IMG/VR virus record: IMGVR_UViG_3300027847_000620 | Coordinates: 1 to 28,804 of that record | Length of the DNA: 28,804 nt | Strand: one strand, 5' to 3' | Origin: a virus | Shown: positions 3,383 through 28,804 of the stretch, in pieces | How positions within the stretch are numbered: the first letter of the stretch is position 1 | Layout: every line of letters begins with the position of its first letter | Notes under the pieces: generated by a model | The model's database searches: none | The model's input: the letters and a program-made list of their open reading frames with translations, nothing else | What the model was told of the DNA's origin: nothing | Program-made: the position numbers and the translations under genes

Positions 3383-4041
3383 GGCTGAAACTTATGCCCC
3401 TCAAGTCCGAAGTTGGCGAACGGAGAGACCCCCACGATCGTGCATCCGTATTGCGACTGGAGCCTCTTTTTTATCTCGATGAGTTGTGGTTCACTTTGCC
3501 TCACGAATGTTCGATACCACTTTTGCCGCTTGTCACCATTGTCGTTCGACCCCTTGTTGTACCCGTCGTATCCCATCTTTCCATCCAGCATCCCTCCGTC
3601 TACGCCGCACAGAAAAATACTCTTGGCTCCCATATATGCCGACAAGTGAACCGCCGATGTGATAGTGGAGCGACTGACAACCAGCTTGTCCGTCCCGATT
3701 ACCGACCAATCAACTTTAGTCTGCCTATTATCCTTGTGCTGAAATATCCAGTAGTCCTTGTCGGTATCGTAATTTGTTTTATCTTTGCGGTGAGTGCCAT
3801 GACTATGCTCGGACACAACGAATTTGACTCCATCTCTGGATGCGTTGAGTGCCTCAACCGGAAGCTCCTTGCCGACAATGTAAGAACACGGGAAATCAAG
3901 AAACGTCCAATTAACGCACACTACCACCCTGTCTCTGAAAAACTCTGGGTCGTAATGCCCCATTGAAGCGGCAGCACCGACGACCCACACATCCTCGCCC
4001 GTCTCCACGCCTTTGAGTTCGGATACTGGTCTCGCGCTCAA
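3379..4041 (-). CDS. GT42/MptE-like (DUF115-type) putative sugar transferase
   Basis: The 220-residue protein has an N-terminal VVGAAASM (residues 20-27) in the place of the GNGPSL nucleotide-binding loop of CMP-sialic-acid transferases (Cst-II, GT42) and MptE-like proteins. A central STITSAVHLSAYMGAKSIFL stretch followed by CGVDGG (125-150) resembles the TSGVYMCAVAIALGYKEIYL-SGIDF segment of that fold. A late VSPFANFG (205-212) sits where the CPNS motif is expected. The catalytic His of Cst-II is not evident after residue 150, so transfer activity is inferred, not shown. The start is TTG at 4041 with GGGAG about 7 nt upstream. It overlaps the CMP-sugar synthetase by 4 nt, which fits use of a CMP-activated sugar as donor. 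The alternative is an MptE-like pyrophosphokinase-fold protein with another role. Confidence 0.65.
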   Translation of the reverse strand: MSARPVSELKGVETGEDVWVVGAAASMGHYDPEFFRDRVVVCVNWTFLDFPCSYIVGKELPVEALNASRDGVKFVVSEHSHGTHRKDKTNYDTDKDYWIFQHKDNRQTKVDWSVIGTDKLVVSRSTITSAVHLSAYMGAKSIFLCGVDGGMLDGKMGYDGYNKGSNDNGDKRQKWYRTFVRQSEPQLIEIKKRLQSQYGCTIVGVSPFANFGLEGHKFQP

Positions 4042-4088
4042 TGCTTCGCTCCCTTACCCCCAATGCGGCCGCTCGTTGTACGTGACAT

Positions 4089-7000: not shown

Positions 7001-7412
7001 TCCCGATCGGACATGCGAACGCTCGCCCCTTGGCTTTGAGGTCGACGTTGCAGCCGCAGATTTGGCAGGATCGGCCGTCTCGCATGTTGCAGGAGTTGCA
7101 GGTGTCGAGTCGTTTCTTGTATTCGTCGGCATCGACCAGTTTGAGGCCGTCTGATGCGAAGTCCTTGAGTGCTTTGGCGAGGCTCCAGCCCTTTGTAATG
7201 AGGCTTGGTGGCTTGGCGATGATTGGACCACCCACCGTCCCGCCACTATATTTCGATCTCGTATCTTCTAGGTCAACACCCGCATTTTCACACCATCCGA
7301 TGCGATACTTCTCACCCTTCTCTGTTGGGGATTCCCATAATTTCCATAGTCCACCGAGGATATGGAGTCCCAGTACCTTACAGAGTCCAGGTTGCGGGTG
7401 ATTACAAGACAC
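4089..7412 (-). CDS. Zinc-ribbon plus four-domain glycosyltransferase polyprotein
   Basis: The 1107-residue protein has several modules. Residues 1-140 carry two Cys clusters, including C105-x2-C108, C116-x2-C119-x-C121 and C134 in CPIGKW, a zinc-ribbon type seen in phage proteins. Residues ~151-372 look like a GT-A transferase with IFQDDALF (228-235) as the metal-binding motif. Residues ~393-620 are a GT2 domain: VDNGS (428-432), NPENTGF (456-462), LLNNDCF (479-485) and DDEWCVRAKKAGW (570-582). Residues ~640-835 match the GT-D/DUF1792 type, with FLRLGDGEW (651-659). Residues ~855-1107 resemble the putative rhamnosyltransferase family (RFNLARDP 863-870; TRLDSDDA 976-983). The start is GTG at 7412, directly abutting the upstream TAG, with GGAG 13 nt before. 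Acceptor and donor sugars are unknown. The downstream neighbours make and use a CMP-sugar, so a multi-sugar glycan is a reasonable inference. Confidence 0.85.
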   Translation of the reverse strand: MSCNHPQPGLCKVLGLHILGGLWKLWESPTEKGEKYRIGWCENAGVDLEDTRSKYSGGTVGGPIIAKPPSLITKGWSLAKALKDFASDGLKLVDADEYKKRLDTCNSCNMRDGRSCQICGCNVDLKAKGRAFACPIGKWGETAKRETQPDWAVGITTAPRRKPTLKQSVESCHRAGFVPTVYAEPGTNIDGVNASIMTRPFLHGPHRNWMQTIRDLVQHNPQAKWVAIFQDDALFCKGTRKFLDEMPWPGEKTGVVSLYCPDDTHYEEEGFVGCKRVAVRDLNGAVAMVFPMVIAKRIADSPKCEAWAGHPNRNEVPEKKSCIDRFIGQTMSDWELDVYVYDPGMVQHIGATSTIYSDTDETERGGRKFRKSLKWPGEDVSPFDTFEDKRPKHPIDVVIPGVDSLDLTEKCLEHLAKSEGVDLHVIYVDNGSESGVLAGVEEKAAELELMFTGIRNPENTGFTMATNQGLALATGDVLLLNNDCFVEPATVATLRRHLHADQKMAAVGPLTADKGAQSIVGRAELRSRKGEDKTLSRGSVAFFCTLIKKNALGHIGLLSGEYVYRNLGSDDEWCVRAKKAGWKIGLSLDAFAEHKHTTTFGRLGIDRGSQTKAAHAALKGKPYISDPQWTEVNHSLSYYGDKIANKQPFSFLRLGDGEWNAIVANGKTTGSKSQVFTPELRSAMANVAASGSPAIYATRFGIFAGAAKEWLNSAGNKREWHNAAVFAEAYMDRDISGFLDPVNSHDGRVILVGPDRMKGLDVIRFDKVIVTKEKNNWDDYDEIIGSIRDCAKDGDIFLFAAGPTAKVLIHELATELPKCWLIDIGSFVDPFCGPPTRGHQRGFPASEVKTTNRMEFSHTVITRFNLARDPGKNENEEWLKKRLLLLERFTYPSLVGQTNQDFEWLILCDITTPEFVRSKLQDLADGFPSMRVEYFDSSLDLPEEERSTGNNGWMDRADPDVLRRLIHCPHEWIITTRLDSDDAVHETFIESIQSHALPKKELLNIKNGYRWAEGRVAPFAHKSNPFLSLVELSSELKTVFHNSHGQITDDFPVRHIENGNLWMIVCHSGNVSNRLGTRATSVPESDASGFQLNVKIPFQDVIEVSLA

Positions 7413-8552
7413 CTAGGCAGTCTCCGTAACTTTAACAGACCATGTGCCGAATTTATCAGTGCAGCAATCGCAAATATCCGCAGTTGCTTGCATTCCAATG
7501 AAAGTAAGCACAAGAGGACTACACGTACAGCCAGACTCAGCAAAATACTGGTTGTTAGACATGCAGTCTGTGCCAGCCCCATCTCCGTAGATTAAAAGTT
7601 CAAATGCACTACAAAGACTGCCGCCACACGTTAATTTTGCATAAAATGACGACAAGCATGACGAACCCACCAGGTAAGTTCCCTCCTGTATACTGTACCC
7701 AGCAGACTCCCACCACTCATCGACTGAGTTCCACGTCATCGCAATCTCTCCTCCATCCATGTCTGCACAGCCAGACACACCAGAGAATGTTAATGTTATT
7801 TCAGACGATAGAAGACCCCCGCAACAATCAACACTGATATCACCACCCATTCCGCTGCCGCTGCCGCTACCAAGCCCTAAGTCATACGGATTGATACAGA
7901 TAATACACGGCACATCCGTCACGGTTGATGACCCGGAGTCAGCGGCCCCTACGCCAGCCGAGCTACATATCAACTTCATCTCGTTCGGGCACATCGGACA
8001 CCAGTCCCAAGTGTTCTTCCACACCTTCCCGCCGTGAGTTAGCGTGACATCCTGAATGCCAGTTCCACCCACGACGAGAGTGGCCTTCGCCGACTCAGAC
8101 CCCCATGAAAACGCATCTTCCGTCTCCCATGTGCAGCCCGTGCTGTATCTCAGGTATTTCGCCCCTAGTGTCGTCGTGGGCACGAGTTGGTATGCGTCTG
8201 GCATCTCCGAGAAATGTGAACACGTCGAAATCGAACCCGTCTCGGTGCAGTTGGAGCAATCGCAACCCGGACGATTCGGTGTGATTGGCCAGTAATCGCA
8301 TCCACCGGATGAGTTTGGAACACAAATGACCGGAACGTCATCGCCCGGTCGAAACCCATCACCCGGTGCCCACGGAGGGTTTGTCGCTGGCAAGTCTGGA
8401 CCGCCCGCGCCAACGCCTCCACCACCCGGCGACCACGGGAGCAAATTCGGCCACGGTGGAAACTGCGCAAGCGGCGCGAGGACTTGTCGCAATAACGGGT
8501 CCGGCCCCACGTAGCGGGGTGTGCGGAACGCGCCCTTTTTTGGACATGCCAT
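7413..8552 (-). CDS. Cysteine-rich secreted/virion-type protein, unknown function
   Basis: The 379-residue protein has 25 cysteines by my count, many in C-x-C, C-x2-C or CC arrangements (CDCSNC, CPMC, DCC, CTC, CDCC). Residues ~1-75 are Pro/Gly-rich with no clear signal peptide. The remainder is beta-rich with repeated phrases of the type EITLTFSGVSGC and LVLTFIGMQA, suggesting two or three diverged copies of a Cys-bounded beta domain. From memory, comparable Cys-rich beta repeats occur in Planctomycetes and their phages, but I cannot confirm homology. The ATG overlaps the upstream stop as TAATG, and its own TAG abuts the glycosyltransferase GTG. The context suggests an appendage component stabilised by disulfides or metal. 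A role as acceptor for the neighbouring glycosyltransferases is speculative. Confidence 0.75.
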   Translation of the reverse strand: MACPKKGAFRTPRYVGPDPLLRQVLAPLAQFPPWPNLLPWSPGGGGVGAGGPDLPATNPPWAPGDGFRPGDDVPVICVPNSSGGCDYWPITPNRPGCDCSNCTETGSISTCSHFSEMPDAYQLVPTTTLGAKYLRYSTGCTWETEDAFSWGSESAKATLVVGGTGIQDVTLTHGGKVWKNTWDWCPMCPNEMKLICSSAGVGAADSGSSTVTDVPCIICINPYDLGLGSGSGSGMGGDISVDCCGGLLSSEITLTFSGVSGCADMDGGEIAMTWNSVDEWWESAGYSIQEGTYLVGSSCLSSFYAKLTCGGSLCSAFELLIYGDGAGTDCMSNNQYFAESGCTCSPLVLTFIGMQATADICDCCTDKFGTWSVKVTETA

Positions 8553-10117
8553 TAAATGCGAAGCCTCTGTCGTTCTGGTCCGTGAGCCTTAACTTCAGCG
8601 TGCAGGCTCTCGAATGCCCACGTCTCGTTGTCAGCTACGTTCGACAGCTTAACAAAGATGGCGTCACCATGCTGCCTGGTCCGATCGGAGAAATTCCGCC
8701 CGGCACTCCACGTTCCGCTGTATTTTGCGACTGTTGCAGCCGTTGCAGCCTGAACCGTCTCGCCGGCATACACGTCGTAGGCAACGTCACTGGAGCCAGT
8801 CGCCATTGTGCCTTGGAGTTCGTTGACCAGCACGCTTTTCATTGAGCCGGCACGGAGCGGGCCGACATAGACGTTACTTGCGATGGCCGAGGTGTCGTCG
8901 GCTGTTCCTGAGTTGTCCCACTTTCGGATCCGCGAGTCCCGGCAGCCCAAGAGGATCGCCCTGTCGCCGGGTGCATCGCCGTCAAACACATCTACGGACA
9001 CGGGATTGAATGCGACGTCAGCGAACACATCAGGCCACCAAGAACCCATGCGTGCATCGTAAAAGTAATGCGTTGTCGCCGAGCCATCCAGTGGAGTCAG
9101 GAAGACGTTCACGCCCTGATCGCGATCGTTCCATACCATCTTTACAATAATGTTGGTCAAATCGAGGTCCGCAAATCGCTCCTCGATCGGCTTACTGATT
9201 CGCTCGGGAGTTCCCTTTGGCGACATGCGGTAGACGCCGCCGCGAGACCCTAAGAAGTAAACGAGACCGCTTGGGTCTTTGCACCACGGTCGGCCCCATG
9301 CCATTCCGGTGATGTCACTGACTTCGACCAGACTTCCGCCCGCCGCTGGATCGCCTTGCATCACCCAGATAGAGTGATCGCAGCCAAAGATCATCAACTC
9401 ATCCGACCACGGGATCATCGTATTGATGACGTCGCCAACCTTACCTGCGTCGGAGTTGTTTCCTGCGATGGCCATTGTGGGAGAGAAATCTTGGCCGTAA
9501 TCCCAGTTGGTCGCATCGCCGGCACACGAAAAGAACCAGTTGTGTTCGTCGCCGATCACGCCACTAACGCATATTCGCGACCGCCAGAGTTCAATCAGCC
9601 GCGGCTTGTTTGCTCCGTTCGCGGGGATCGTGCCAGCCGTCGCGGCCCATGCGGAGACCGTGTTGGTTGAGGCTGTCCACTTCTTGTAATTGATTCCATC
9701 GGCGAAGTAGACGACTTGAAACAAGGGCGCGCTGAAGATTGCCGGGACGGTCGCAGAGAGCGCGGCACTGCCGGCTGTCGCCGTTGTGAACGACGATGGC
9801 GAGTAAGTGCCGACCGTGCCGCCTGATACCACATACGGCGTGACTGTCCGTACTGTAATGTCTGTGGCGCTTGGTGCGGCCTGTGCGGTCGTGACGTGCC
9901 CGAGGTCTTGGATTGGGTTGGACCCGTTAAACTGGGCTGAGAGATGCCGCGTCAGACCCGCTCGCTGCCCGCCACGCGATCGACCGGAACCCGGATCGTA
10001 TGCCCGCACGTTCTGGCATGAGGGTGTTGTGAGTTGCTGCTGGCCATTAAGTCCGAACTGCTCGTCGAGACCCTTGGTGGGGAATCCGAGTTCGATGGGT
10101 GCTGATTGTTCGGGCAT
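8552..10117 (-). CDS. Putative beta-propeller-like phage tail/virion protein
   Basis: This is a 521-residue protein. The N-terminus (ELGFPTKGLDEQ, then NVRAYDPGSGRSRGG at 36-50) resembles the start of large phage tail/stabilisation proteins that fold as beta-propellers. Later blade-like phrases include DELMIFGCDHSIWVM, SGLVYFLGSRGGVYRM and THYFYDARMGSWW, each pairing hydrophobic strands with aromatic turns. There is no transmembrane segment or catalytic motif. The ATG at 10117 follows the upstream stop by one base and is preceded by GGGGA; its TAA overlaps the next ATG. A role in the short-tail hub or needle is an inference from family resemblance and location among appendage genes. A host-binding or enzymatic propeller is also possible. 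Confidence 0.65.
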   Translation of the reverse strand: MPEQSAPIELGFPTKGLDEQFGLNGQQQLTTPSCQNVRAYDPGSGRSRGGQRAGLTRHLSAQFNGSNPIQDLGHVTTAQAAPSATDITVRTVTPYVVSGGTVGTYSPSSFTTATAGSAALSATVPAIFSAPLFQVVYFADGINYKKWTASTNTVSAWAATAGTIPANGANKPRLIELWRSRICVSGVIGDEHNWFFSCAGDATNWDYGQDFSPTMAIAGNNSDAGKVGDVINTMIPWSDELMIFGCDHSIWVMQGDPAAGGSLVEVSDITGMAWGRPWCKDPSGLVYFLGSRGGVYRMSPKGTPERISKPIEERFADLDLTNIIVKMVWNDRDQGVNVFLTPLDGSATTHYFYDARMGSWWPDVFADVAFNPVSVDVFDGDAPGDRAILLGCRDSRIRKWDNSGTADDTSAIASNVYVGPLRAGSMKSVLVNELQGTMATGSSDVAYDVYAGETVQAATAATVAKYSGTWSAGRNFSDRTRQHGDAIFVKLSNVADNETWAFESLHAEVKAHGPERQRLRI

Positions 10118-10118
10118 G

Positions 10119-11150
10119 TCATATCCCCAGCATCGTCAATAGGAACTCAGGGTTCGTTGAGCCGCCTGCCGTGTCAACCGTGAATGTGGGTGCCGCAACC
10201 AATTCCGCTGCCCCGGTTAATGCCGCTGCTGGTATCGTCGCCGTGATCGTCTCGCCAGCTGATATATCGTAGTCCGCAACCGCTGGCAGGGAGATTGTCA
10301 CAACCGTGTCGCTCGTTCTAACAACATCGCTGGGCTGTAGGGCGATGTCTCTTACTTTGGCGTTCCATCCAGTGGATTCACTTTGTGCCGACGTTAGCCC
10401 TGCGATGATTGCGTTACGCTGTTGGTCGAACTTTGTTGCTCGTTGCTGGAACGGGACGCTGGGGTAGATAATCGGCGGGTGGTCTGCCCATGTTGGTGAC
10501 CCGTTCGCCGTCAGGTCGCCGTTTAGTCCATAGATATCTTTGTCATGCTCGCCGTAGATACCACCGAACGGGCGGTACTCAACTCGATTATCATGCGCAA
10601 CAGAATATGGGCTGACGTACTGCATCGACAGTAATTCGCTGGCTGTTAATTGGCGGTCCCAAAATGCCAACTCAGCAACGCGACCTGCAAAATGCTGTTC
10701 GACAGTCCCGTTGTGGCTCCTTGCCCCTATCCACGAATTAGTGGGGTTTGTAATGTTCGTGCTTGTACTCGGTGCATCCCACGAATTGATACCCCCATCC
10801 ACTCCATTCAGCCATAATCGGGCGTCCATATCCGTGCTGTTGCCAGTGAGATACCCGCACGCATGGTTCCACGCATCGAACACCGGAGAGTCAACAGTTG
10901 ACATGGCATTCCTTGTGGCCGCATCTCGGAAACCGAAAACAACAGGGTCATTTGCAGTCACCCCCGACATCATCAAAAATACCCAGTCGTGATTTCCGCT
11001 CCCGTCCCCTACCTCCAACGAAAAAACGGTCTGACTCGCCGTGTTGTCCGTTGGGAAGAACCAGCACGAAAACGAGAACGGCTCACCGGCAGGAATAATC
11101 CCATCAGCGATGTGGAGGTATTGAGTCGATCCGTCAAAGTTGCGAGCCAT
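10119..11150 (-). CDS. LamG/concanavalin-like domain tail appendage protein
   Basis: The 343-residue protein begins with a LamG-type jelly roll (residues ~1-190). The signs are FDGSTQYLHIAD at the start, FSFSCWFFPTDN, then DARLWLNGVDGG, and RVAELAFWDRQLTASEL at the end, a pattern typical of LamG_3-like domains. Residues ~255-343 form a second beta domain containing ADYDISAGETITATIPAAAL, an Ig-like repeat often appended to phage structural proteins. Such proteins usually bind carbohydrate or act as structural spikes. The ATG at 11150 shares bases with the upstream TAA (TAATG). It is one of three concanavalin-like genes in the window. Host-glycan binding is inferred. Confidence 0.8.
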   Translation of the reverse strand: MARNFDGSTQYLHIADGIIPAGEPFSFSCWFFPTDNTASQTVFSLEVGDGSGNHDWVFLMMSGVTANDPVVFGFRDAATRNAMSTVDSPVFDAWNHACGYLTGNSTDMDARLWLNGVDGGINSWDAPSTSTNITNPTNSWIGARSHNGTVEQHFAGRVAELAFWDRQLTASELLSMQYVSPYSVAHDNRVEYRPFGGIYGEHDKDIYGLNGDLTANGSPTWADHPPIIYPSVPFQQRATKFDQQRNAIIAGLTSAQSESTGWNAKVRDIALQPSDVVRTSDTVVTISLPAVADYDISAGETITATIPAAALTGAAELVAAPTFTVDTAGGSTNPEFLLTMLGI

Positions 11151-11665: not shown

Positions 11666-12018
11666 TATGAATCAATTCCATCTTCGATGTCGGTTTGGAT
11701 TTCCCCCGCCGCCTTGGTCGTTTGAGTGTTGTCTGCGAGCCAAACAAACAGCGACTGCCATCGTAGGTTGTCGTCGAGGTGCGTTTTCTGGCTGACCTTG
11801 TCTGCCGTAACTGCTGTTGCTGTGTCTGCCGCATCCACCGCATCCTTGGCCGCTTGGTTCATCGCAGAAACAACATCCCCGCTTATTTCCCAATACTTAC
11901 TCGGGACACCGACCAATGTAGACAAGTCGGGGTTGATGATCCACGTGCCGACATCGAAGTCCAGCGTGTTGACCGAACGTCTGAATTCTTTGGTTGTTCT
12001 GTGAACTACGTTTGCCAT
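11665..12018 (-). CDS. Small tail-fibre-cluster protein, unknown
   Basis: The 117-residue protein starts MANVVHRTTKEFRRSVNTLD. I chose ATG at 12018 rather than the upstream in-frame start at 12030 because it forms the same TAATG overlap with the upstream stop that recurs at neighbouring junctions. The N-terminal FDVGTWIINPDLSTLVGVP looks like a short beta unit. Residues ~48-80 are Ala-rich and probably helical (VSAMNQAAKDAVDAADTATA). It has no signal peptide or catalytic motif. It lies between a LamG protein and a beta-rich structural protein and likely takes part in the same appendage. Specific function is unknown. Confidence 0.7.
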   Translation of the reverse strand: MANVVHRTTKEFRRSVNTLDFDVGTWIINPDLSTLVGVPSKYWEISGDVVSAMNQAAKDAVDAADTATAVTADKVSQKTHLDDNLRWQSLFVWLADNTQTTKAAGEIQTDIEDGIDS

Positions 12019-12935
12019 TAGGCTACCCATGTATCGCCGGTGAGAGTAAGAATGACCGTCTTGCCGCCCGTTACGACATCTGATTTTGTGATGCTGCTTG
12101 TGACTGTTCCGGTGAGTGCGCCTGCCGCCACTGCCGATGCGTATGAAAACTTACGTGCGATAGGGCGGATTATTGCTTCGGGGCTGTTGTGGATGTCGAC
12201 CACTTCTTGTGGGTTGAGTTTTTTGTCGTAGATTCTAACGTCGAAAAAGTCTGCGTCAGCCCCCGTACCTGTTCCGGTGTAGCCGATACGGTTGCCAGTG
12301 ATCGCTCCAAAGTCTTCTCCGTTCGCAACTGAGAACGACACGCCATCTTCGTACACCTGATAGTCACTTGCTGTTCCAGATCGGGGGTCTTCTCCAGTGA
12401 TGCAAAAGTGCGTCCACACTCCTACCTTTGCCGATGGAGCGCTTACTGTTTGTGATTTAATAGAGATTGCTGTGGTATTCGGTGATCGACCCCAAGATAA
12501 ATACCCATAGAGGTTGTCGACCTTTACTCGCATAACAAAAAAGTGATCTGATGTCCCGTTTATCGAGAAAATGAAGCGTCTCGGATAAGCCCCTGTGTTT
12601 GCCGTAATGCGTTCCCACCAGCACAACGCAAACGCTCTGCCGCTTGTAAGCTGTGGCCTAACACCTATATCGACATATTGATCCACCGCATCAAACAGTA
12701 GAGAAGTTGCCCGCCCACCCGGTTGTTGTGATACAGACTGAGTTGGCCCGTTGACTCTGGTTCCGTGGTTATTGAACCCCGAATAATCCCAATCGTCTGT
12801 ATTGCCGCCATCAACGCCCAAAGGCCACATCGCCCTGATGCCCTGTGCCTGATCCGAATCCGTATCTAACTCGAACTCTCCATTTTGGAAAGCAACGAGG
12901 CGTTCGTCGGATGTAGGTGGCAACCACAGGGGCAT
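12018..12935 (-). CDS. LamG/concanavalin-like tail appendage protein
   Basis: The 305-residue protein starts MPLWLPPTSDERL. Residues ~35-245 read as a concanavalin/LamG jelly roll: DWDYSGFNNHGT, SLLFDAVDQYVDIG, FALCWWERI, VGVWTHFCITG and the terminal strand ADFFDVRIYDKKLNPQEV. The last ~45 residues (AVAAGALTGTVTSSITKSDV, then TVILTLTGDTWVA) form a separate beta domain that may serve for anchoring or trimerisation. It shares the LamG type with the gene two positions downstream but is not an obvious recent duplicate. The start is ATG at 12935, 6 bp after the upstream stop, with AGGA about 11 nt upstream. A carbohydrate-binding role is inferred from fold only. Confidence 0.8.
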   Translation of the reverse strand: MPLWLPPTSDERLVAFQNGEFELDTDSDQAQGIRAMWPLGVDGGNTDDWDYSGFNNHGTRVNGPTQSVSQQPGGRATSLLFDAVDQYVDIGVRPQLTSGRAFALCWWERITANTGAYPRRFIFSINGTSDHFFVMRVKVDNLYGYLSWGRSPNTTAISIKSQTVSAPSAKVGVWTHFCITGEDPRSGTASDYQVYEDGVSFSVANGEDFGAITGNRIGYTGTGTGADADFFDVRIYDKKLNPQEVVDIHNSPEAIIRPIARKFSYASAVAAGALTGTVTSSITKSDVVTGGKTVILTLTGDTWVA

Positions 12936-17228: not shown

Positions 17229-19094
17229 TTAAAGTGATGTGTTGTCGAATGAAATTGTGTTGCCGTCGCGAATGTACTGGCCATCGCTGTTTATCGTGCT
17301 GGGGTCGCGATTTCGCCCAAGTCGAGCGGGGGCCATTTCCGCCTGATCCATCTCGATCGAGGCCGCCATCAACTCGCGAAACCGTCCGGCTTGCGACTTG
17401 TCGACCAACGAGATGCAACTTGCGAGTATTGTTTCTGAATGCTCAGAACCGCAGTAAGGAAATTCGCCGGTCAGTAATTCGACGGGGTCCACTTTGCAGC
17501 GATAAGTCAGCAAATAAACGTCATCGGGAGGCGGCCAAAAGAAGACTTCCCATCGCCTGCCGGTTGCAGCCACTAACGCCTTCGGTCTGAGTGAAGCGTA
17601 TCGTGGCTGGTCGGTGGTTTCCCACCCCTGATACATCGAACGGATCCGGTTGTCGGGAATGATTTCGATCGGGCGATCGAGACCGTTGACTCCCGGCTGA
17701 AATGTGAATGTCTGCGGGGCACTGAAGCCAGCAAAGTCACTCTCTAAGTCGTACTTCGTCTGCTGGACAATATAGGTCGTTAAGGCTGCGGAATCGGCCG
17801 CATCGGTCGTGTCCTCAAGTGTGACTTGCGTATTGCTTTCCCGCGTGTCGATCGCATAGGTGGTCCCGGAGATAACGATCTCGCCGCTCGCTGCCCATGT
17901 TGGGAATGTACCGTCCACTGTGAGCGTGACGACGCCCGAGACGATCGTAACTGTTCCGGTTGAATAGGACGCCTTGGTCGACAATTCTTTCACCGGACGC
18001 ATAAACGACCACAGATGCGTCTTGTGCATCCCGTCTTGGGCCGGCATGTAGAACTGCTTCAGCCCACGCTGAATGAATGAATTGACGCGACGTTCGGTGT
18101 TGTGACCCCAAGTCTTGGCGTTCGCGCCAACATTGAGTGCGACACCAACCTCTTGTGCCAACCAATCGTAGGATCCGATTGTGACGGCCGTATTTCGGTA
18201 ACTCTTGCCGTCGATGCGGCTGGCTCGCTTATCGATTTGCACAGAAGCGGCCATTCGGGCTTGGAATGCAGCCCCATGAACGCCCGATGTGCCGTCGACC
18301 TTGATCTCCGCTGCGGCCAAGCACGACTCAAGGATTGTGTCTGAGTGCGCCAACCCACCGAGCGGATACTTGTTCGTCGGCGTCATCTTGCTGGGGGCGA
18401 TTTTGTAGCTGTACTCGGCGACGTATGTGGCATCTGGTGTGGGGTAAAAGATTGCCTCGAATCGCTGCCCGTCCGTCTGGTCAATCGCCTTTGGTCGAGT
18501 AGCAACGTATTGGGGAGCGCCCGTCACGTTGTCCTGTGCCCGCATGGCTTGCAGTTCGGGCACCGACACAATTTGAATAGGTTCCTGAATGACGCCCACC
18601 CCATACGTTATGTGCGACAAAACCTGATCGAAATTGTCTGGCAGATCGTAATCGAACCCTTCCGCCACAGTGAGGCTTAACGCCGTGGCCGGATTCAGGA
18701 ACGACCAGACATAAGGCGTCTTGTGTTCTGAGTTCTCGCCCATCGGCACCGGGGCGTAGAAGCTCCGCTGGCCGGACTTGATGCAGTCTGTGACCGCATC
18801 GTAGCCGGGTTCTTCGGTTTGGAGTAGGACGTAGGCTGTGGGGCCGGCATCCGTTACAGATGTGTCGTCGAGCGTGATGGCTGTATCGCCACCGCGAGAA
18901 GCGACTGTGTAGCCCACGCCGCCGAGATCCACTGTGCCAGCCGCCGCCCACGTCGGGAACGTACCGCCCGTAAGCGTGACGACCCCTGACGATATGGCAA
19001 AAGTGCCAGCCGAGTAGGTGCGACCGAGACCGAGAAGTCGCATGACGTCTCGGCAGCATGTCGCATAATCAACGGATAGTGTGGACTCAGCCAA
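17229..19094 (-). CDS. Internally duplicated putative head-tail adaptor protein
   Basis: The 621-residue protein reads as two copies of one fold. Copy 1 contains SGQRSFYAP (107-115), WSFLNP (130-135), YDLPDNF (149-155), RPKAIDQTDGQRFEAIFYPT (200-219) and HSDTILESCLAAAE (250-263). Copy 2 contains RGLKQFYMP (343-351), WSFMRP (362-367), YDLESDF (448-454), RPKALVAATGRRWEVFFWPP and HSETILASC. Each copy also holds a beta module with SGVVTLT and GTFPTWAA (28-92 and 378-446), placed at different points in the two copies. The FY-P, WSF-P and YDLP-F pattern is what I associate with phage connector/neck proteins, so an adaptor role is inferred. The start is TTG at 19094 with GGAGG 6 nt upstream, overlapping the preceding gene by 8 bp. 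Confidence 0.7.
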   Translation of the reverse strand: MAESTLSVDYATCCRDVMRLLGLGRTYSAGTFAISSGVVTLTGGTFPTWAAAGTVDLGGVGYTVASRGGDTAITLDDTSVTDAGPTAYVLLQTEEPGYDAVTDCIKSGQRSFYAPVPMGENSEHKTPYVWSFLNPATALSLTVAEGFDYDLPDNFDQVLSHITYGVGVIQEPIQIVSVPELQAMRAQDNVTGAPQYVATRPKAIDQTDGQRFEAIFYPTPDATYVAEYSYKIAPSKMTPTNKYPLGGLAHSDTILESCLAAAEIKVDGTSGVHGAAFQARMAASVQIDKRASRIDGKSYRNTAVTIGSYDWLAQEVGVALNVGANAKTWGHNTERRVNSFIQRGLKQFYMPAQDGMHKTHLWSFMRPVKELSTKASYSTGTVTIVSGVVTLTVDGTFPTWAASGEIVISGTTYAIDTRESNTQVTLEDTTDAADSAALTTYIVQQTKYDLESDFAGFSAPQTFTFQPGVNGLDRPIEIIPDNRIRSMYQGWETTDQPRYASLRPKALVAATGRRWEVFFWPPPDDVYLLTYRCKVDPVELLTGEFPYCGSEHSETILASCISLVDKSQAGRFRELMAASIEMDQAEMAPARLGRNRDPSTINSDGQYIRDGNTISFDNTSL

Positions 19095-19933: not shown

Positions 19934-20686
19934 CTAGGAATCGAATTCTTGGGCACAACTGTACCAGTCGATGTGGGTGATCGGATCGGCTGTTCCGTCC
20001 GACTGACACACGAACGACGGCTTCATCCCGACGATCGGAATGTTCGCAGTCGCCACGTTGATGCCTGTGGTGGCGATCTTCGCGCCGTCCACATACCACT
20101 CGACCTTGTCGATCCCGGTGACCTTGAATCCCAGCTTGACCCAAGTGCCATCAACGAGAGTGTTGGTGGTAACGCCCGTGTGGGCCGCCGAAGCATTCTC
20201 GGAGTTTCCGAGCAGGATCATGTTGTCGGTGATCGATCCGAAACCAATGTGGTTAGCGGACGTGTTTGCGCTACCGGCGATGATCGAGGTGTCGTATTCC
20301 GACAACCCAACAAAGAACTCCGGGCCAGCCGACGCAACATCGACTACCTTCAAGCGAGTTTCAAACCAGATGACACTGTCAGCCTTGGGCGTAATGAACG
20401 ACCCAGTTGCGCCAGCGGTCTGGACGTTGGCACCCTGAGTCACTGTCGAACTGGCACAGTCGAGAAGGGCAACGCCGCCAATGGCGTCGTCCAGAGCGAA
20501 AGTACCGGACGAACCCGCTTGGGTCGTAAGATACCGTTCGGCCAGAAGATCCTCAGTGAAATCGTCCTCAATGAGAACGCCACGAACGAAATCGTCTTTG
20601 ATTTCGAGTCGCGGGCAGCCGTGCCACAAGTTATTGGAGCGACCGCGACCTTCGCCGTCCGAGTCGCTGAATTTTACGATGGTCAT
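19934..20686 (-). CDS. Concanavalin-like putative capsid decoration protein
   Basis: The 250-residue protein immediately follows the major capsid gene. After an N-terminal extension with KDDFVRGVLIEDDFTEDLLA, residues ~60-250 read as a concanavalin-type jelly roll: GGVALLDCASS, DSVIWFETRLKVVDVA, EFFVGLSEYDTSI, TWVKLGFKVTGIDKVEWYVD and the closing ITHIDWYSCAQEFDS. Proteins with this fold and position commonly sit on the capsid surface or mediate weak glycan binding; assignment as a decoration protein rests on gene order. The start is ATG at 20686 with AGGAGGG upstream, a strong site consistent with high expression. Its stop is followed by an intrinsic terminator, so it ends the head transcription block. 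A minor tail protein is the main alternative. Confidence 0.7.
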   Translation of the reverse strand: MTIVKFSDSDGEGRGRSNNLWHGCPRLEIKDDFVRGVLIEDDFTEDLLAERYLTTQAGSSGTFALDDAIGGVALLDCASSTVTQGANVQTAGATGSFITPKADSVIWFETRLKVVDVASAGPEFFVGLSEYDTSIIAGSANTSANHIGFGSITDNMILLGNSENASAAHTGVTTNTLVDGTWVKLGFKVTGIDKVEWYVDGAKIATTGINVATANIPIVGMKPSFVCQSDGTADPITHIDWYSCAQEFDS

Positions 20687-20745: not shown

Positions 20746-21804
20746 TCAGGCGACGTGGAGAACGAAGTTTTGGCGTCGGTCATTGCACCGCAGGTTGCAG
20801 GAAGAATCAACATGCACGACGCGGACGTTGTGCTGGTTGTCCTTCTTCTGCGGCTTGGTCCGAACCATGTCCTTACCCTTCAGGAAAGCAAAGTCCATCG
20901 TATTCCAATTCACGCCGTAGAGCGGATTGGCCGAGTCGTATCCGTCCTGCGTGGAGTGGGTCAGTTCGGGAATCCACTGCAAGGGAACACCCTTGAATGT
21001 TGGACGACCTTTGGCACCTGTTCCCGCGAGGTCCGACAGGTTGTCGTTTCGCGCGTCGAGGAACTGCTGGGCCGCTTCGTAGACCGAGTAGGTCGTGTAG
21101 AACATCCAGTCTGGGTCGCCGCCGCCGTTCTGCGGGAACTGATGCGGTGACTCGAAGTGCGTAAACTCAGTTGCCTTAAGCCACTTGGAAATCAGGTCGT
21201 TCCGCGTCACTGAGACATACGCACCGGAGTAGTTCGACCAGTTGATATACGTTCCGGTCGAGACGCCACCCGCACCGGCAGCGAAACCACTCGGGTCGCC
21301 ACCATTGAAGCCGACCGTCGCGTTCTTCTGCAACCAAAACGGGATGCCGGAGAGCGGACGTTTCGCCAAGGTTGAGGATGAGGGGGCCGACCAGAATGCC
21401 GACTCCAAACCCTCGTAGAGATTCGAGTACATCGAATGCTCTCGCATGACAATCAGATCGATGATAATCTCGCGATTGCCCCCTTGGAATTCCTCCTCGT
21501 TAATATCATAAACATAATTGCTGGTCGCGATCGCCCAGGGCTGCTCGGCACCGACCGCCAAGTTCTTCACATCGTACTCGTCGACCGAGTACAGGTTCGT
21601 CCAGCGAAACGCATCCGTGTTCGAGACTTGGAGTTTCCAAGTCTGCTTCGGAGTCGCCTTCGTTGGCGCTTTTTTGGCTTTCAGCCATCGCGATGCAACG
21701 GAGTATCGCTGGTTGTTGAGACTGAGGTCGACCCACTTCGCACGGTCGGCCTTATTGTAGGTCAGTTCGACAAGGTCGTCGATTGCGTCGGGCATGAGGC
21801 CCAT
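20746..21804 (-). CDS. Major capsid protein (HK97-fold type)
   Basis: This is a 352-residue protein, a normal size for a phage major capsid protein without a delta domain. Features pointing to this family are the helical MPDAIDDLVELTYNKA start, the spine-like EEEFQGGNREIIIDLIVMRE with a following GLESAFWSAP, the late FKGVPLQWIPELTH, and the NPLYGVNWNTMDFAFLKG followed by a C-terminal RCNDRRQNFVLHVA. Many copies would assemble the icosahedral shell around the scaffold encoded just upstream. ATG at 21804 has AAAGGTG at proper distance; an in-frame ATG three codons later is less well spaced. No transmembrane or catalytic motif is present. Fold assignment is from motif recognition and gene order. 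Confidence 0.85.
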   Translation of the reverse strand: MGLMPDAIDDLVELTYNKADRAKWVDLSLNNQRYSVASRWLKAKKAPTKATPKQTWKLQVSNTDAFRWTNLYSVDEYDVKNLAVGAEQPWAIATSNYVYDINEEEFQGGNREIIIDLIVMREHSMYSNLYEGLESAFWSAPSSSTLAKRPLSGIPFWLQKNATVGFNGGDPSGFAAGAGGVSTGTYINWSNYSGAYVSVTRNDLISKWLKATEFTHFESPHQFPQNGGGDPDWMFYTTYSVYEAAQQFLDARNDNLSDLAGTGAKGRPTFKGVPLQWIPELTHSTQDGYDSANPLYGVNWNTMDFAFLKGKDMVRTKPQKKDNQHNVRVVHVDSSCNLRCNDRRQNFVLHVA

Positions 21805-23470: not shown

Positions 23471-23649
23471 TTTGGGCGTCGATTCATTGTGCAGTTGCGG
23501 CAAAAGCTGTAGTTCTTCCGCGTCCCCTCGGGGCACGATTCAATTGGGAACCGCTTGCCGCATTTTATGCAATTCTTCTCGTAGGCGCGGGATGTCGTAA
23601 GTTTTCCGATCACGGCACCCGTCACTGCGTAGACTGTCGTTGTTTTCAT
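23467..23649 (-). CDS. Zinc-ribbon mini-protein (60 aa)
   Basis: This 60-residue gene starts at ATG 23649, with GGGGGG about 6 nt upstream. The sequence MKTTTVYAVTGAVIGKLTTS is followed by NCIKCGKRF, ESC, and FCRNC (pairs C-x2-C and C-x2-C with another Cys between), the layout of a zinc ribbon. The C-terminus is basic (TMNRRPK), suggesting nucleic-acid binding. Its ATG overlaps the portal stop as ATGA and its stop overlaps the next ATG as ATGA, so it is translationally locked between portal and the following gene. Function is unknown. Alternatives are a regulator, a packaging accessory or a metal-stabilised structural element. Confidence 0.75.
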   Translation of the reverse strand: MKTTTVYAVTGAVIGKLTTSRAYEKNCIKCGKRFPIESCPEGTRKNYSFCRNCTMNRRPK

Positions 23650-25529
23650 TGCATGCCCCCCTGCTGCTGCTCTTGGCCCTGCTGCTGACCGGCGCTCGCC
23701 AAGAGCGACTGCTGATTCTGGACTCGCTGCGCATCCGGCGTCCCGCCCGTCGATACACTCTTTCTGACGTATTCGCGGCTGGTATTGGCCGGCATACCCG
23801 GCGCGTTGCCTTCCGGTGTGGTTGGCTCGTAACCGTCGTCGAATGTGATCCACCGCTTGATCCGCGGCATATCGGCCATGTCTGCGTAGTCTTCGACGAT
23901 CGCCTTGAAGTCGATCGATCCGCCCTGTGCCCGAATCTCTTCTCGTAACGGGAGTGCGAGATCCCGCAAGAACGCGGTCAAACTCTGCATCCGCTCGGTT
24001 GGCGACTTATACGCCATCGAGTACGGCTCGACCTTGAAGTTGTACTGTAGGTAGTCGCCCTCGCGTTCCCCTGGCGTCCACGAAGCATCGATGGGGAGAT
24101 CGATTCCGCTTTCGTGCCGCTGGCCAGGAATCTCCTTGACTGCATCCACCCACAGCATCCAGCCAATATCACTCATGATATTGGCCGTGAAAGCGACCAC
24201 ATGGTACTGCATCTTAGCTTCACGCTTCGACACGGCACCGTGGATCAGCTTATCTTGCCCAAGGGTGTCCGACTGCGGTCCAAGGCCGGCCATCGCATCG
24301 AGATTACCGGCCATCCGGGAAAATGTGCCGTCGATGTTCGAGAAGAACGCGAGGTCGGTTTGGTCAACGCCGGCAAAGTGAATCTCCTTGACGGAGTCGA
24401 TGTCGCTCACCTTTATCATCTCATTATTGCCAGCCGACTGGATCTGCTGTGCGTCCTGCCCGTCCCCGCGGTAGGCCGTGACTGTCTTTGAATCGCGTGA
24501 GTTGCGGGATTGCTTCCGCATGATCGAGTTCATCAGGTCGTGCAGCCCCTTGAGGTTCTGCGCGGGTGAACTCGGCATGATGTTGTCTGGAACATCCGAG
24601 AATGACAACAGATGGAATGGCCCACCCTCGGGTCCGTCCCACTTTTCAATGAGCAATGGAAGCAGCCCATCCTCACCGGCATCCGAGAATACGCACCACT
24701 TGCCCTCACGGGGCAGCCACACATCCATCAGGTTGACCATCGGGCTGGTTTCGTCGTGATCTACGTTCGCCTGTGTCATTTCGCTGACTGGATCGGCACC
24801 CTCGTGTCGCTGGTCGCTGTCCCATTTGCTGCTGGATTTCAGTTTTTCTACGTTTTCCTTGAAATCATCGAACCGCATGTCCCCCTTCACATCTTCAAGC
24901 GGAACCCGATATTCATGGACTGCAAACTCGATCTTCTCCCATGACGTTGCACGGGTATCGAAGATGAAGTCGTCCAGTGAGACTCGCGCCAACATCGGCC
25001 GGCCGGGGTCCACCCAGATGTTTGGCTCGATCCCGCCAGCTTGGGCTTCTCTGTACTGGTCCCATACGCCCTGCGGTGCGCCTTCCCACGGTTCGGTGGG
25101 CATGTCGGGGTTTGGCATCTCGATCGGCTTACTCGGTGCGAGGAACACTTTGGCAATGCCGACCGAAAAGAACGCATCGAGAACAATCATTCGCAGCGAT
25201 TCTTCGATGTGAATCTCCGCGATGTGGTTGTTGACTGCCGTCTGGAACGTCTTTGAGAATCGGTAAAGGCTGTCTTGTGCTGTTGTGATGAGGACACGGG
25301 GGCGCTCGGCAGCGAGCGAAAACGTGTAAGTATTCGCAGTCAAATTTAACATATTGACGAGAACTTCACGCACCTTGCTGTCGCCATCGCCATCCGAGTC
25401 GCCCCAGTGCGAACCCACGTACTCTTCGATGAGTTTCTTTCGATTCTCACAGAATGGCCGTAGCGTCTTCCGGGACGTTCGGATCGCCCTCGCAAGTTTT
25501 GAACGGTCGGATTTTTTGAGTGGATTCAT
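23646..25529 (-). CDS. Phage portal protein
   Basis: The 627-residue protein lies in the normal position between terminase and scaffold/capsid genes. It starts with a basic helical region (MNPLKKSDRSKLARAIRTSR), contains EYVGSHWGDSD and VREVLVNMLNLTANTYTFSL early on, and has a long helical crown region near FNFKVEPYSMAYKSPTERMQ and LTAFLRDLALPLREEIRAQG, all like portal proteins of tailed phages. The C-terminal ~25 residues are Gln-rich (QQQGQEQQQGGMQ), echoing the Gln bias of the scaffold. Twelve copies would form the DNA-entry ring. ATG at 25529 lacks a clear Shine-Dalgarno sequence; only GAAGAAA is near, just after a run of nine C residues. A candidate promoter/operator element lies 41 nt upstream. 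Confidence 0.85.
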   Translation of the reverse strand: MNPLKKSDRSKLARAIRTSRKTLRPFCENRKKLIEEYVGSHWGDSDGDGDSKVREVLVNMLNLTANTYTFSLAAERPRVLITTAQDSLYRFSKTFQTAVNNHIAEIHIEESLRMIVLDAFFSVGIAKVFLAPSKPIEMPNPDMPTEPWEGAPQGVWDQYREAQAGGIEPNIWVDPGRPMLARVSLDDFIFDTRATSWEKIEFAVHEYRVPLEDVKGDMRFDDFKENVEKLKSSSKWDSDQRHEGADPVSEMTQANVDHDETSPMVNLMDVWLPREGKWCVFSDAGEDGLLPLLIEKWDGPEGGPFHLLSFSDVPDNIMPSSPAQNLKGLHDLMNSIMRKQSRNSRDSKTVTAYRGDGQDAQQIQSAGNNEMIKVSDIDSVKEIHFAGVDQTDLAFFSNIDGTFSRMAGNLDAMAGLGPQSDTLGQDKLIHGAVSKREAKMQYHVVAFTANIMSDIGWMLWVDAVKEIPGQRHESGIDLPIDASWTPGEREGDYLQYNFKVEPYSMAYKSPTERMQSLTAFLRDLALPLREEIRAQGGSIDFKAIVEDYADMADMPRIKRWITFDDGYEPTTPEGNAPGMPANTSREYVRKSVSTGGTPDAQRVQNQQSLLASAGQQQGQEQQQGGMQ

Positions 25530-25616: not shown

Positions 25617-26204
25617 TTACAAGTTTTCTGAAATTAACTGCTTTTCGAGTTCATCGAGGATCGCAAATTGCCTTCTGTGGTCGTCCTCAAACGCCTGCTT
25701 GTCGTTTGATTTCTTTTTCTTCTCCGCGTAATGCTTTGCGCAGATGTCCATAAACTTCACTGGTGCCTTGTCTCGGCCGTAATCCAAGAAATACCAAGCA
25801 GAACTCGACGGTGCGTCCTTGATCTTCACCAGCATGTTGCCGATGTTTTCAAACGCCCACTCAAGGTCGGAGTCCCAGTCGGAATCCCCCTTGTTTCTGG
25901 CCAAGGCGTCGACCTGTATGTCTGTGAATCCGCTGTTAAGTTGAGGGGGGTTCTCGGCCACTTCCTTCTCGACTTTCTCTTTGATGTCTGGGTAGGGATG
26001 CTTGCGGGTGGGCTTTCCGGCTGGGAAATAGCTCGATGCCACCGCGAACGCCTCGTCCTCTGAGCATTTCAGTTCTGCCTGGATACGAAGCCTGACTTCC
26101 TTGAATTCGAGCCATCGGCCATCGGCTCGCAATCTCAGGAAGAACGCATGTTTCGACTCTTCTTTTTGGTTACCAGCGATAATCGCCTCCAGTCTTCGCG
26201 GCAT
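25617..26204 (-). CDS. Unidentified charged protein downstream of terminase
   Basis: This is a 195-residue protein from ATG 26204; a TTG at 26237 preceded by GGGA is an alternative that would add 11 residues. It overlaps the terminase end by at least 35 bp. The N-terminus is basic (MPRRLEAIIAGNQKEESKHA). The middle is acidic (GDSDWDSDLEWAFENIGNML) and the C-terminus is strongly charged and helical (KHYAEKKKKSNDKQAFEDDH, then LDELEKQLISENL). I do not recognise a family. It contains no obvious helix-turn-helix or nuclease motif. The position between terminase large subunit and portal suggests a packaging accessory or head protein; a small terminase subunit in unusual order is possible but unsupported by motifs. 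Confidence 0.65.
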   Translation of the reverse strand: MPRRLEAIIAGNQKEESKHAFFLRLRADGRWLEFKEVRLRIQAELKCSEDEAFAVASSYFPAGKPTRKHPYPDIKEKVEKEVAENPPQLNSGFTDIQVDALARNKGDSDWDSDLEWAFENIGNMLVKIKDAPSSSAWYFLDYGRDKAPVKFMDICAKHYAEKKKKSNDKQAFEDDHRRQFAILDELEKQLISENL

Positions 26205-28026
26205 TGAGTTTGTCTCGTGCGGCGAAGCGATGCCCAACGGTTTCCCGCTTGGGTGGCTCCTTTTTACCCTTCACCTTGATGACTTCTGAGTCCTTCACGC
26301 CCAGCCATCCGCAGGCGGCGGCGATCGCGACGTCTCCGTGTGTCATGCCCTTATCTGCGTTGCTTTCGGAGTTTTTGGCCCCGGCGTGGAAGATTCTCCC
26401 GTTCGATCCCATCTCATATTCCAACATCTCAGTCAGGATCGTTTCCGATCGGATGACAACCTGCATCATTCGCATCGAGTCCTGCAGCGAGCCGAGGATC
26501 ACCGTTCCGCTGTCTTGGTTCTGATAGCCGTATTTCTTGGTCTTTTTCTCACTTCCAAGCTGATCTCGGCCCTGCCGGTACATATTGTGGTAGCCCTCTT
26601 GTGCGAGGACTTTCATGAATTGAAGGCCCGGCCCATTACATTCGGGGACCAGAAACGCCTCGTGGAACCATTTGCAGACGCCGATCGTGAATCTCGCGAA
26701 CTCTTCCGGCGACATGGATCGGGTGGTGAACTGCCCAACCTGCTCGTGGGTGATCCTGTCGAAAATGACGAGTGCCGAGTTACTGGCGTATGCGCCGCCT
26801 GTTCCAGCCGCAATGTCTGCCCCAATAGAGAATTCCGAATGGGCCGGCCGGACCCCGTCAAATGGGCACCACAGCTTGAATTGACCATTCGACACGGTCG
26901 ACCAAGTGGCCTCGAAGTCCATAGCATCAACTCCCAATCGACCAACGACGAACGGGTCAAGGATGTCGTCGGCCATGACCCGAGCGATCACCGTCTCATC
27001 GGCGAACCTCTCTGCCGAGCCGTGGAAGTCGATGTCGAGTTCCTGGGCAATCTCGACCGGGCTGTTTACTCGATCGCACTGCTTGTCGTACCAAGTCGAT
27101 CTTGGGTTTCCCCGCACGAATTTCAGTTGGGTGAAGTCGTAATCGTCCTTCCAGTCGTAATCTTCCGGTAGTGGCACCTTCTCGCCGCCAATGTCCTTGT
27201 AGAGACCGATCCGCTTGTCTGGATGCTCAGACCAGTGCAGGAACACCTTCTCAACGTCCTTGTTTCGGACCTTCAGATAGAAGGGTCCACCAACGCCAAA
27301 CCTGCCATTTGGCGTTGAATTGAAGATCCGGCAGCGGGTCACGTCGCGAGTCGAGGTGAAAATCTTGGCCGCACCAGGCATCTTTGAAGTTTCATCCATC
27401 AGGATGGCTGTTCGCCTGTCACCCGTCGCCATATTGTCGACAGTCGCTTCACCGTCGAATGCACTGTTATTGTCGAGGTTTTTGCAATGTTTCTGCCGGC
27501 GTTCCATGTTCGGAAGCATCCAGATCGGTGTGTGTTTCCACCAGAAATCTAGCTTTTTGAACAGTGCTTTTTCACTCTTTCCGTCGACTAATTCCTCTTT
27601 TTCGGATGTTAGCAGGAATAGCTGATTCGAGTGGAACCGCCATCGATGCTCCAAAACGATCAGGCACATCCACGACGCCCCCATGTCCCGGCTCTTGGGG
27701 ACTGCCACGTCATCGATGCCGATCAGGCTCTGTAGCCGGGGAATCTCCCGCTCTTGGTAGCCGTAAGGGATAAATGGCCGCAGCGGGTGATCTGGATGCT
27801 CTTTCGGGTTGAGGGTCCAACCGAACACCGCGGTCGAGAAAAGGATGTCCCGTGCGCAGATAATCCAGATTTCACGGGCGAACTCGGGATTTTCGTACCC
27901 AAGTTTGAGTATCTTGCGGCGAAATCGCAGGTTTCCCGCCAGATCCTTCGGGACCAGGTTCTGGTAATACCAGTCGGTCGGACCCAGCGGGCACTGGCTT
28001 TGTAGGTTTGTCGACTTCCAGTCCAA
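26170..28026 (-). CDS. terL: Terminase large subunit
   Basis: This 618-residue DNA-packaging motor has an N-terminal ATPase and C-terminal nuclease. Visible are a Walker A-like PKSRDMGAS (110-118), Walker B AILMDE (207-212), a coupling motif NSTPNG (236-241), and nuclease acidic residues D404 in IGADIA, E462 in VPECNG and D565 in HGDVAIA. The start is TTG at 28026, supported by GGGGA 9 nt upstream; no ATG in frame precedes the conserved region. It is the first gene of the leftward operon, downstream of the 45-bp element at 28049-28093. It overlaps the next gene by at least 35 bp. No small terminase subunit is evident in the window; it could lie beyond the right edge or be replaced by the neighbour. 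Confidence 0.93.
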   Translation of the reverse strand: MDWKSTNLQSQCPLGPTDWYYQNLVPKDLAGNLRFRRKILKLGYENPEFAREIWIICARDILFSTAVFGWTLNPKEHPDHPLRPFIPYGYQEREIPRLQSLIGIDDVAVPKSRDMGASWMCLIVLEHRWRFHSNQLFLLTSEKEELVDGKSEKALFKKLDFWWKHTPIWMLPNMERRQKHCKNLDNNSAFDGEATVDNMATGDRRTAILMDETSKMPGAAKIFTSTRDVTRCRIFNSTPNGRFGVGGPFYLKVRNKDVEKVFLHWSEHPDKRIGLYKDIGGEKVPLPEDYDWKDDYDFTQLKFVRGNPRSTWYDKQCDRVNSPVEIAQELDIDFHGSAERFADETVIARVMADDILDPFVVGRLGVDAMDFEATWSTVSNGQFKLWCPFDGVRPAHSEFSIGADIAAGTGGAYASNSALVIFDRITHEQVGQFTTRSMSPEEFARFTIGVCKWFHEAFLVPECNGPGLQFMKVLAQEGYHNMYRQGRDQLGSEKKTKKYGYQNQDSGTVILGSLQDSMRMMQVVIRSETILTEMLEYEMGSNGRIFHAGAKNSESNADKGMTHGDVAIAAACGWLGVKDSEVIKVKGKKEPPKRETVGHRFAARDKLNAAKTGGDYRW

Positions 28027-28218: not shown

Positions 28219-28239
28219 ACCACACAGAGGGGAATGGGA

Positions 28240-28804
28240 ATGGAAGAAGCGATCATCTATGCTCGGGTTTCACCGAAACCGGAGCATAAGAAGGACAGGT
28301 GCGAGTCAATCGACACTCAGATTGAGGGGTGCCAGGCTTACTGCCAGTCTTACCAAATGAACCCGTCAGTGATCCTGCGTGATCCTGGGGTTTCCGCCAG
28401 AAAGAATCAGCTTCTTGACCGCCCCGAAGGCAGGAAGATCATGACGCTCGGCTACAGGCACATCGTGGTCCTCAAACTGGATCGCATGTTTCGCAGCACG
28501 GCTGACGGACTCCTGACCATCAAGGAGTTTCACAGGAGGGGAATCACGCTGCATTTAGCCAACGAATCAGGAGTGTCCCTCACATCGAACACGGATGAGG
28601 GGTACTACGTTCTCACGATGCTTCTTGCCCGTGCAGAATACGAGGCCGCGAAAACTGGTTCCACCACCGCCCACGCACTGAATCGAATCCAAAAGCAGGG
28701 TCGGATTGTGAGCCGGTCGTGCCGGTACGGGTACAGGGAAATCGAAAGCAAAGGAGCCGACAATAGGAGGAGGTTCGAGCGGTGCGAAGAGGAGCAATTC
28801 TATG
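28240..28804 (+). CDS. Serine recombinase (resolvase/invertase N-terminal domain), partial
   Basis: The frame is open to the right edge, 188 codons. ATG at 28240 is chosen over ATG at 28234 because GAGGGG then lies 7 nt upstream. Seen: the catalytic YARVS (nucleophilic Ser at residue 11), SIDTQIEGC, the GVSARKN and RPEGRKIM segment, the LDRMFRSTADGLL helix with both expected arginines, and a C-terminal RYGYR that normally begins the DNA-binding linker. The region that in resolvases carries the ER---I-ERT arginines here reads AEYEAAKTGSTT, so those arginines are not evident. The gene is divergent from the structural operon, with a promoter-like sequence and a large inverted repeat in front. 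A phage integrase is the likely role; resolvase or invertase cannot be excluded because the DNA-binding part lies outside. Confidence 0.9.
   Translation, partial: MEEAIIYARVSPKPEHKKDRCESIDTQIEGCQAYCQSYQMNPSVILRDPGVSARKNQLLDRPEGRKIMTLGYRHIVVLKLDRMFRSTADGLLTIKEFHRRGITLHLANESGVSLTSNTDEGYYVLTMLLARAEYEAAKTGSTTAHALNRIQKQGRIVSRSCRYGYREIESKGADNRRRFERCEEEQFY

Follow-up and report, generated by a model that had tools for sequence, protein, structure and literature searches.

Short-tailed phages have been described with one adaptor ring, and crassviruses, whose rings are encoded by separate genes, are the multi-ring exception (PMC10172136). The head-to-tail adaptors gp11 of phage SU10 (PF24175; 7z47), gp11 of T7 and TTPA of KP32 consist of a helix bundle and a fibre-dock beta domain. 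The adaptors of SU10 and T7 wrap the portal with their C-terminal segment, and in T7 gp11 the loop between helices 1 and 2 touches the nozzle (PMC9509320, PMC6702177). All 12 adaptor subunits of SU10 use this portal tail. In crAss001, five stacked rings are formed by the products of four paralogous genes (PDB 7qoj; PMC10172136), and residues 15–26 of the last ring reshape to fit the muzzle (PMC10172136).

The gene reported here lies on a 28.8-kb IMG/VR virus record (the window, i.e. the whole stretch of DNA that was analysed). Both halves of its product are predicted to share the helix bundle and fibre-dock beta domain of the SU10, T7 and KP32 proteins. Unlike these, it has two adaptors per chain, a small beta module in the helix 1–helix 2 loop of half 1 and a related module in the dock hairpin of half 2. 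Half 2 has a C-terminal tail, the putative counterpart of the portal-wrapping segment of SU10 and T7, whereas half 1 has none. As in crAss001 (R1–R5), there are several paralogous adaptor-fold proteins per phage, two in the window and up to five in its relatives, the latter number equalling the five rings of crAss001. The crAss001 rings are separate gene products, whereas here two, three or five copies are fused by short linkers, or the copies are split. No other pointer toward a crassvirus was found.

The adaptor gene and its surroundings

The features of the window that are needed below are as follows.

17229..19094, minus strand: fused double head-to-tail adaptor gene (ORF with translation; two adaptor domains by profile)
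18189..19094, minus strand: half 1, aa 1–302, complete adaptor fold without a portal-type C-terminal tail
18813..19022, minus strand: beta module 1, aa 25–94, at the N-site (helix 1–helix 2 loop); module profile match
18168..18212, minus strand: linker between the adaptor copies, about aa 295–309, between the last helix of half 1 and the first of half 2
17229..18188, minus strand: half 2, aa 303–621, complete adaptor fold and C-terminal tail
17754..17981, minus strand: beta module 2, aa 372–447, at the A-site (beta hairpin of the dock domain); module profile match
17232..17342, minus strand: tail at the C terminus of half 2, about aa 585–621, 36 residues past the last helix
14030–15892: tail-fibre-like protein, next after the adaptor gene in the listed gene order
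20746..21804, minus strand: major head protein (phrog_9953, E 6.6e-7), three genes upstream of the adaptor gene
between these two: LamG-like protein, then a 261-aa protein
23646..25529, minus strand: SU10-type portal protein (Pfam PF23899 SU10_portal, 34.4 bits at a cut-off of 30; phrog_332, E 3.5e-8)
between the portal and major head protein genes: Q-rich protein at the scaffold position
26170–28026, leftward: terminase-like gene

Nearly all genes of the window read leftward, and the portal, major head protein and adaptor genes share one strand. A portal of the SU10 type near the adaptor gene is a further likeness to SU10. The adaptor gene reads from 19094 to 17229 with a TTG start preceded by GGAGG and encodes 621 aa; an identical protein is encoded on a second contig. 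The earlier note on this gene gave residue numbers that are correct to within a few residues and did not mention the minus strand. A search with phmmer against the PDB returned zero matches for the nozzle candidate, a 521-aa ORF at 8552–10117.

Several other genes of the window were recognized. A cluster at 2777–7412 encodes a CMP-sugar-type cytidylyltransferase, an MptE-like protein and a 1107-aa protein with GT2, GT-D and rhamnosyltransferase domains; these are phage-borne glycan genes. LamG/concanavalin-like proteins are identified by Pfam at 10119–11150 and, weakly, at 19934–20686 (between the head protein and adaptor genes), and the product of 12018–12935 resembles them by eye only. Proteins of similar size to the 19934–20686 product occur at the corresponding position in the related contigs L074 and L128. 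An integrase/DNA invertase (recombinase) gene on the plus strand at the right edge (28234–28803), cut by the end of the record, hints at a temperate phage. The adaptor family is present in three of the 392 Planctomycetota genomes searched, so that a host among the planctomycetes is no more than a lead.

Sequence and predicted structure of the two halves

The two halves align with each other (blastp, E 4e-32), and their cores without the modules are identical at 62 of 213 positions. All landmarks that the earlier note had listed for both halves were located in the ORF: FY-P (aa 112 and 348), WSF..P (130 and 362), YDL (149 and 448), RPKA (200 and 503) and HS-TIL-SC (250 and 552). The modules share SGVVTLT (36 and 386) and GTFPTWAA (44 and 395) and are identical at 34 of 72 positions, which bears out their homology. 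Module 1 precedes FY-P whereas module 2 follows WSF-P, and this difference in order is no alignment effect.

Scans of the 621-aa protein with Pfam and PHROGs gave no adaptor match. PF24175 SU10_adaptor (cut-off 27 bits) matched nowhere in the record, and the control of that search likewise matched nowhere. The protein of L128, which has the same architecture, reaches 51.9 bits with PF24175, and several single relatives also score above the cut-off. By sequence, the window protein thus appears to be a diverged relative of the PF24175 family rather than a member of the model. Since the direct profile scans gave no adaptor match, the assignment rests on the relatives and on the fold.

A full-length alignment with single-copy relatives placed single A-site adaptors on half 1, and the halves were therefore modelled separately with AlphaFold. 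The models (pLDDT 91.7 for half 1 and 85.2 for half 2, with low confidence in the C-terminal tail of the latter) cover each half alone, and the mutual arrangement of the halves is outside their reach. The SU10 adaptor (7z47_A) aligns with both models over 190 residues, with a VIA Z of 10.7 for half 1 and 11.7 for half 2. VIA Z is 11.6 for half 1 with cyanophage A4 (9k09_d) and 12.3 for half 2 with 8zkk_B. Solved adaptors of SU10, cyanophage A4, Pa223, VP1, T7 and others match the halves over their length; the tail-barrel rings of crAss001 also match both, with lower scores. Each half is thus predicted to be a complete SU10-type head-to-tail adaptor with helix bundle and fibre-dock beta domain.

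In the half 1 model, the strands of module 1 (E31–91) lie between helix 1 (aa 10–21) and helix 2 (aa 97–113). The last helix of this half (H272–294) is followed by 17 residues up to the next copy. In the half 2 model, little separates helix 1 from helix 2, and module 2 breaks the beta domain at its first hairpin, between the strand following WSF-P and YDL. According to the models the two modules occupy different loops at non-equivalent sites. Of the refuting conditions named in the earlier note, equivalent module positions and non-homologous modules, neither holds, and the order is not explained by a simple duplication of an adaptor that already bore a module.

Models of both modules match the same solved chains, chain 8eci_1 of Arthrobacter phage Bridgette and the barrel domain of Uba1, and therefore probably share one small beta-barrel fold. 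VIA Z values with 8eci_1 are 5.6 and 6.8 over 66–72 residues; as those with the Uba1 barrel domain are similar, the predicted fold is regarded as a common one. A sequence profile of the module matches the distal tail protein gp20 (23gd_B) in the PDB weakly (E 0.0018). Besides the weak scores, both phage proteins differ from the window modules in that the barrel is a separate chain or an N-terminal domain and not a loop insert.

Copy number and module sites in relatives

Relatives were collected by searches with each of the two halves. Single proteins prevail among them, with a length of about 260 aa where the module is absent, and Pfam SU10_adaptor matches the majority of those tested. Relatives encode one to five adaptors, split or fused; the sets of several copies are as follows.

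Fused, two copies: window, L128, L043, L101
Fused, three copies: L030, L045, L104, L108
Fused, at least three copies: L026, where the set ends at the contig end
Fused, five copies: L121:2160–5972 and its near copy L122:2160–5972 (1270-aa ORF)
Split or mixed: L074, L098 and L127 (two copies each), L027 (three), L135 (four)

A counterpart of the window gene is a fused ORF of L128 (5001–6872) with both modules at matching sites. It lies in the same gene order as judged by ORF size, with ORFs of 353-248-258-623-252 aa in L128 and 352-250-261-621-250 aa in the window. The same adaptor pair is encoded by two adjacent genes in L074, L098 and L127. The 1270-aa ORF contains five separate Pfam SU10_adaptor stretches. 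Copies 2–4 of L121 are 53–63% identical, a probable sign of later tandem growth, and the fifth copy carries an A-site module and a tail. In L135 (4890–8360) four adaptor copies are distributed over three adjacent genes (two fused and two single); the last copy has an A-site module and a tail.

Every one of the 14 complete sets of several copies has exactly one copy with a long C-terminal tail (at least 35 residues past the last helix). The tails of L104 (IGVGYD) and L128 (IGTNSD) were missed by the automatic motif test and were counted by length. Linkers between fused copies are 16–19 aa long in every case.

About 100 adaptor domains were surveyed for inserts: 40 have one at the A-site, four have a module at the N-site and one has an insert at a third site. 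The N-site set later grew to six (window, L074, L098, L099, L127 and L128). N-site copies are first, tail-less adaptors, L099 being a fragment whose end is unseen. A-site modules are found on tail-bearing copies, be it a single adaptor or the one copy of a set that has the tail. Where there are several copies, the module is confined to the first copy (N-site) or the one with the tail (A-site), and none of the middle copies has it. Since the second adaptor of the split pairs L074, L098 and L127 is module-free, a module at both ends is no general rule. Single-copy adaptors with an A-site module, for example L068 and L051, resemble half 2 in core, module and site, but are present as one copy only, and none of those seen has the module at the N-site. 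BFVD entries of similar size to these proteins have 330–340 aa.

Other arrangements of inserts and modules were also observed. The adaptor of L005 (5917–6876) has a 74-aa beta-rich insert at a third site, ahead of the C-terminal helices. In L055 (4001–5215) the A-site insert of 140 aa resembles two tandem module copies. A 1083-aa ORF downstream of the A-site adaptor in L039 (5679–8927) has two copies of the beta module and the corresponding ORF of L058 (5671–8927) has one, so that the module appears to be shared between proteins of one phage. A further copy is present in a tail-like protein of L117.

Ring arrangement and history of the modules

In our preferred reading, with a probability of roughly 0.62, the gene encodes two SU10/T7-type adaptors head to tail that form a linked stack of rings, with half 2 on the portal. 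Twelve copies would assemble into a stack of two 12-fold rings with a covalent link between them. The ring docked on the portal would be that of half 2, whose tail would wrap the portal and whose module would sit on the dock domain; the single tail per set suggests that one ring meets the portal. Half 1 would form the outer ring toward the nozzle and carry its module on the helix 1–helix 2 loop. The T7 precedent, which places the N-site on the nozzle face, points to the outer end of the stack for module 1. The linker would stand in for the embracing tail that half 1 lacks and would hold the rings in register and at 1:1 stoichiometry. Opposite ends of the barrel would each bear one of the two modules, which would probably bind fibres or the nozzle. 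They may have been gained at different loops in two paralogues, predating the present fused gene.

Alternatively, six fused copies could form one pseudo-12-fold ring of alternating halves, which would hard-wire the change from a 12-fold portal to a six-fold nozzle and fibres. Adjacent adaptors differ in conformation in SU10, which has six fibres and a six-fold nozzle, and a two-copy fusion fits an alternating ring directly; for two-copy chains this arrangement is conceivable. Relatives with three, four and five copies argue against it: a five-copy chain cannot tile or evenly alternate in a 12-mer on a 12-fold portal, and three copies would lead to four-fold symmetry, so that stacking fits best. 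Moreover, the portal tail occurs on just one copy of each set, compared with all 12 subunits in SU10, and the paralogue lineages are ordered first, middle and last. A single alternating ring is thus unlikely, and the pseudo-symmetric ring subunit considered in the earlier note is less likely than stacked rings.

It is also rather doubtful that the modules are mainly carbohydrate- or host-binding decorations, with the ring architecture incidental to their placement. This would agree with the module relatives in other virion-region proteins (the ORF of L039, the protein of L117) and with the matches to gp20 and Bridgette. The restriction of the modules to the first or tail-bearing copy, however, points to the ends of the stack.

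The history of the halves was followed in trees of the cores. In a tree of 62 rows, half 1 belongs to the N-site clade (six rows, support 100/99) and half 2 to a clade of last copies with A-site modules (six rows, 100/97), together with L128, L135, L121, L108 and L104. The sister group of the latter (96/84) comprises the second adaptors of L074, L098 and L127, which have no module, and the tail-bearing adaptor of L027, which is first in gene order and yet placed in the tail-bearing clade. Forcing the halves together in a 41-row test costs 52.6 log units, and their sisterhood is rejected (p-AU 0.007). Because of this tree, the same fused gene in L128 and the split pairs, the halves are taken to be old paralogues with module sites of their own, fused or split in different phages. 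Thus the proposed duplicated adaptor holds as a double adaptor with homologous halves, whereas a recent duplication within the gene is not its source. Eleven changes of module state are found in an 83-row core tree; the modules therefore come and go.

An origin of module 1 from module 2 by copying or relocation within the gene after duplication, which would make the two mutually closest, is improbable. The modules are indeed more alike than the cores, and in L128 the nearest relative of module 1 is the module 2 in the same gene (52%, support 89/86). Module 2 of the window, on the other hand, is nearer to single-adaptor A-site modules (63–65% to that of L068) than to module 1 (47–50%), and several other modules are nearer to module 1 than module 2 is. 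In addition, the N-site is common to six cores of one clade. The test disfavours the two window modules as sisters but falls short of a formal rejection (p-AU 0.084). That all N-site modules go back to a single origin, likely by the cores, was not adopted: these modules do not group in the module tree (p-AU 0.041), which with 73 columns is too short to settle module history. Exchange between modules is possible, if weakly supported.

That the unusual order stems from chimeric assembly or from two genes joined by a frameshift, for which the pair encoded as two genes in L074, L098 and L127 might speak, is refuted by L128, an independent diverged relative with the same fused ORF and gene order, besides the identical protein on a second contig and the many further fused sets.

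Both the adaptor fold and barrels of several rings have precedents. The fusion of several rings into one chain and modules at role-specific loops were not found in the literature or in the isolate phage genomes searched: the window protein and three relatives had no match in 50,697 isolate phage records, and literature searches on fused or tandem adaptors gave no description. On balance we lean slightly toward a wider proposal, that in these uncultivated short-tailed phages the tail barrel may be one concatenated polypeptide of two to five rings. A mobile module would be attached to the portal-side ring and, in one lineage, also to the nozzle-side loop of the outermost ring, and ring number would equal domain number. 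From the two module sites it can be seen how paralogous ring proteins may each acquire a beta domain at a loop of their own. The series of one to five adaptors, split or fused, makes the setting of tail-barrel length and the enforcement of ring order testable; if the proposal is true, the number of domains in one gene sets the number of rings.
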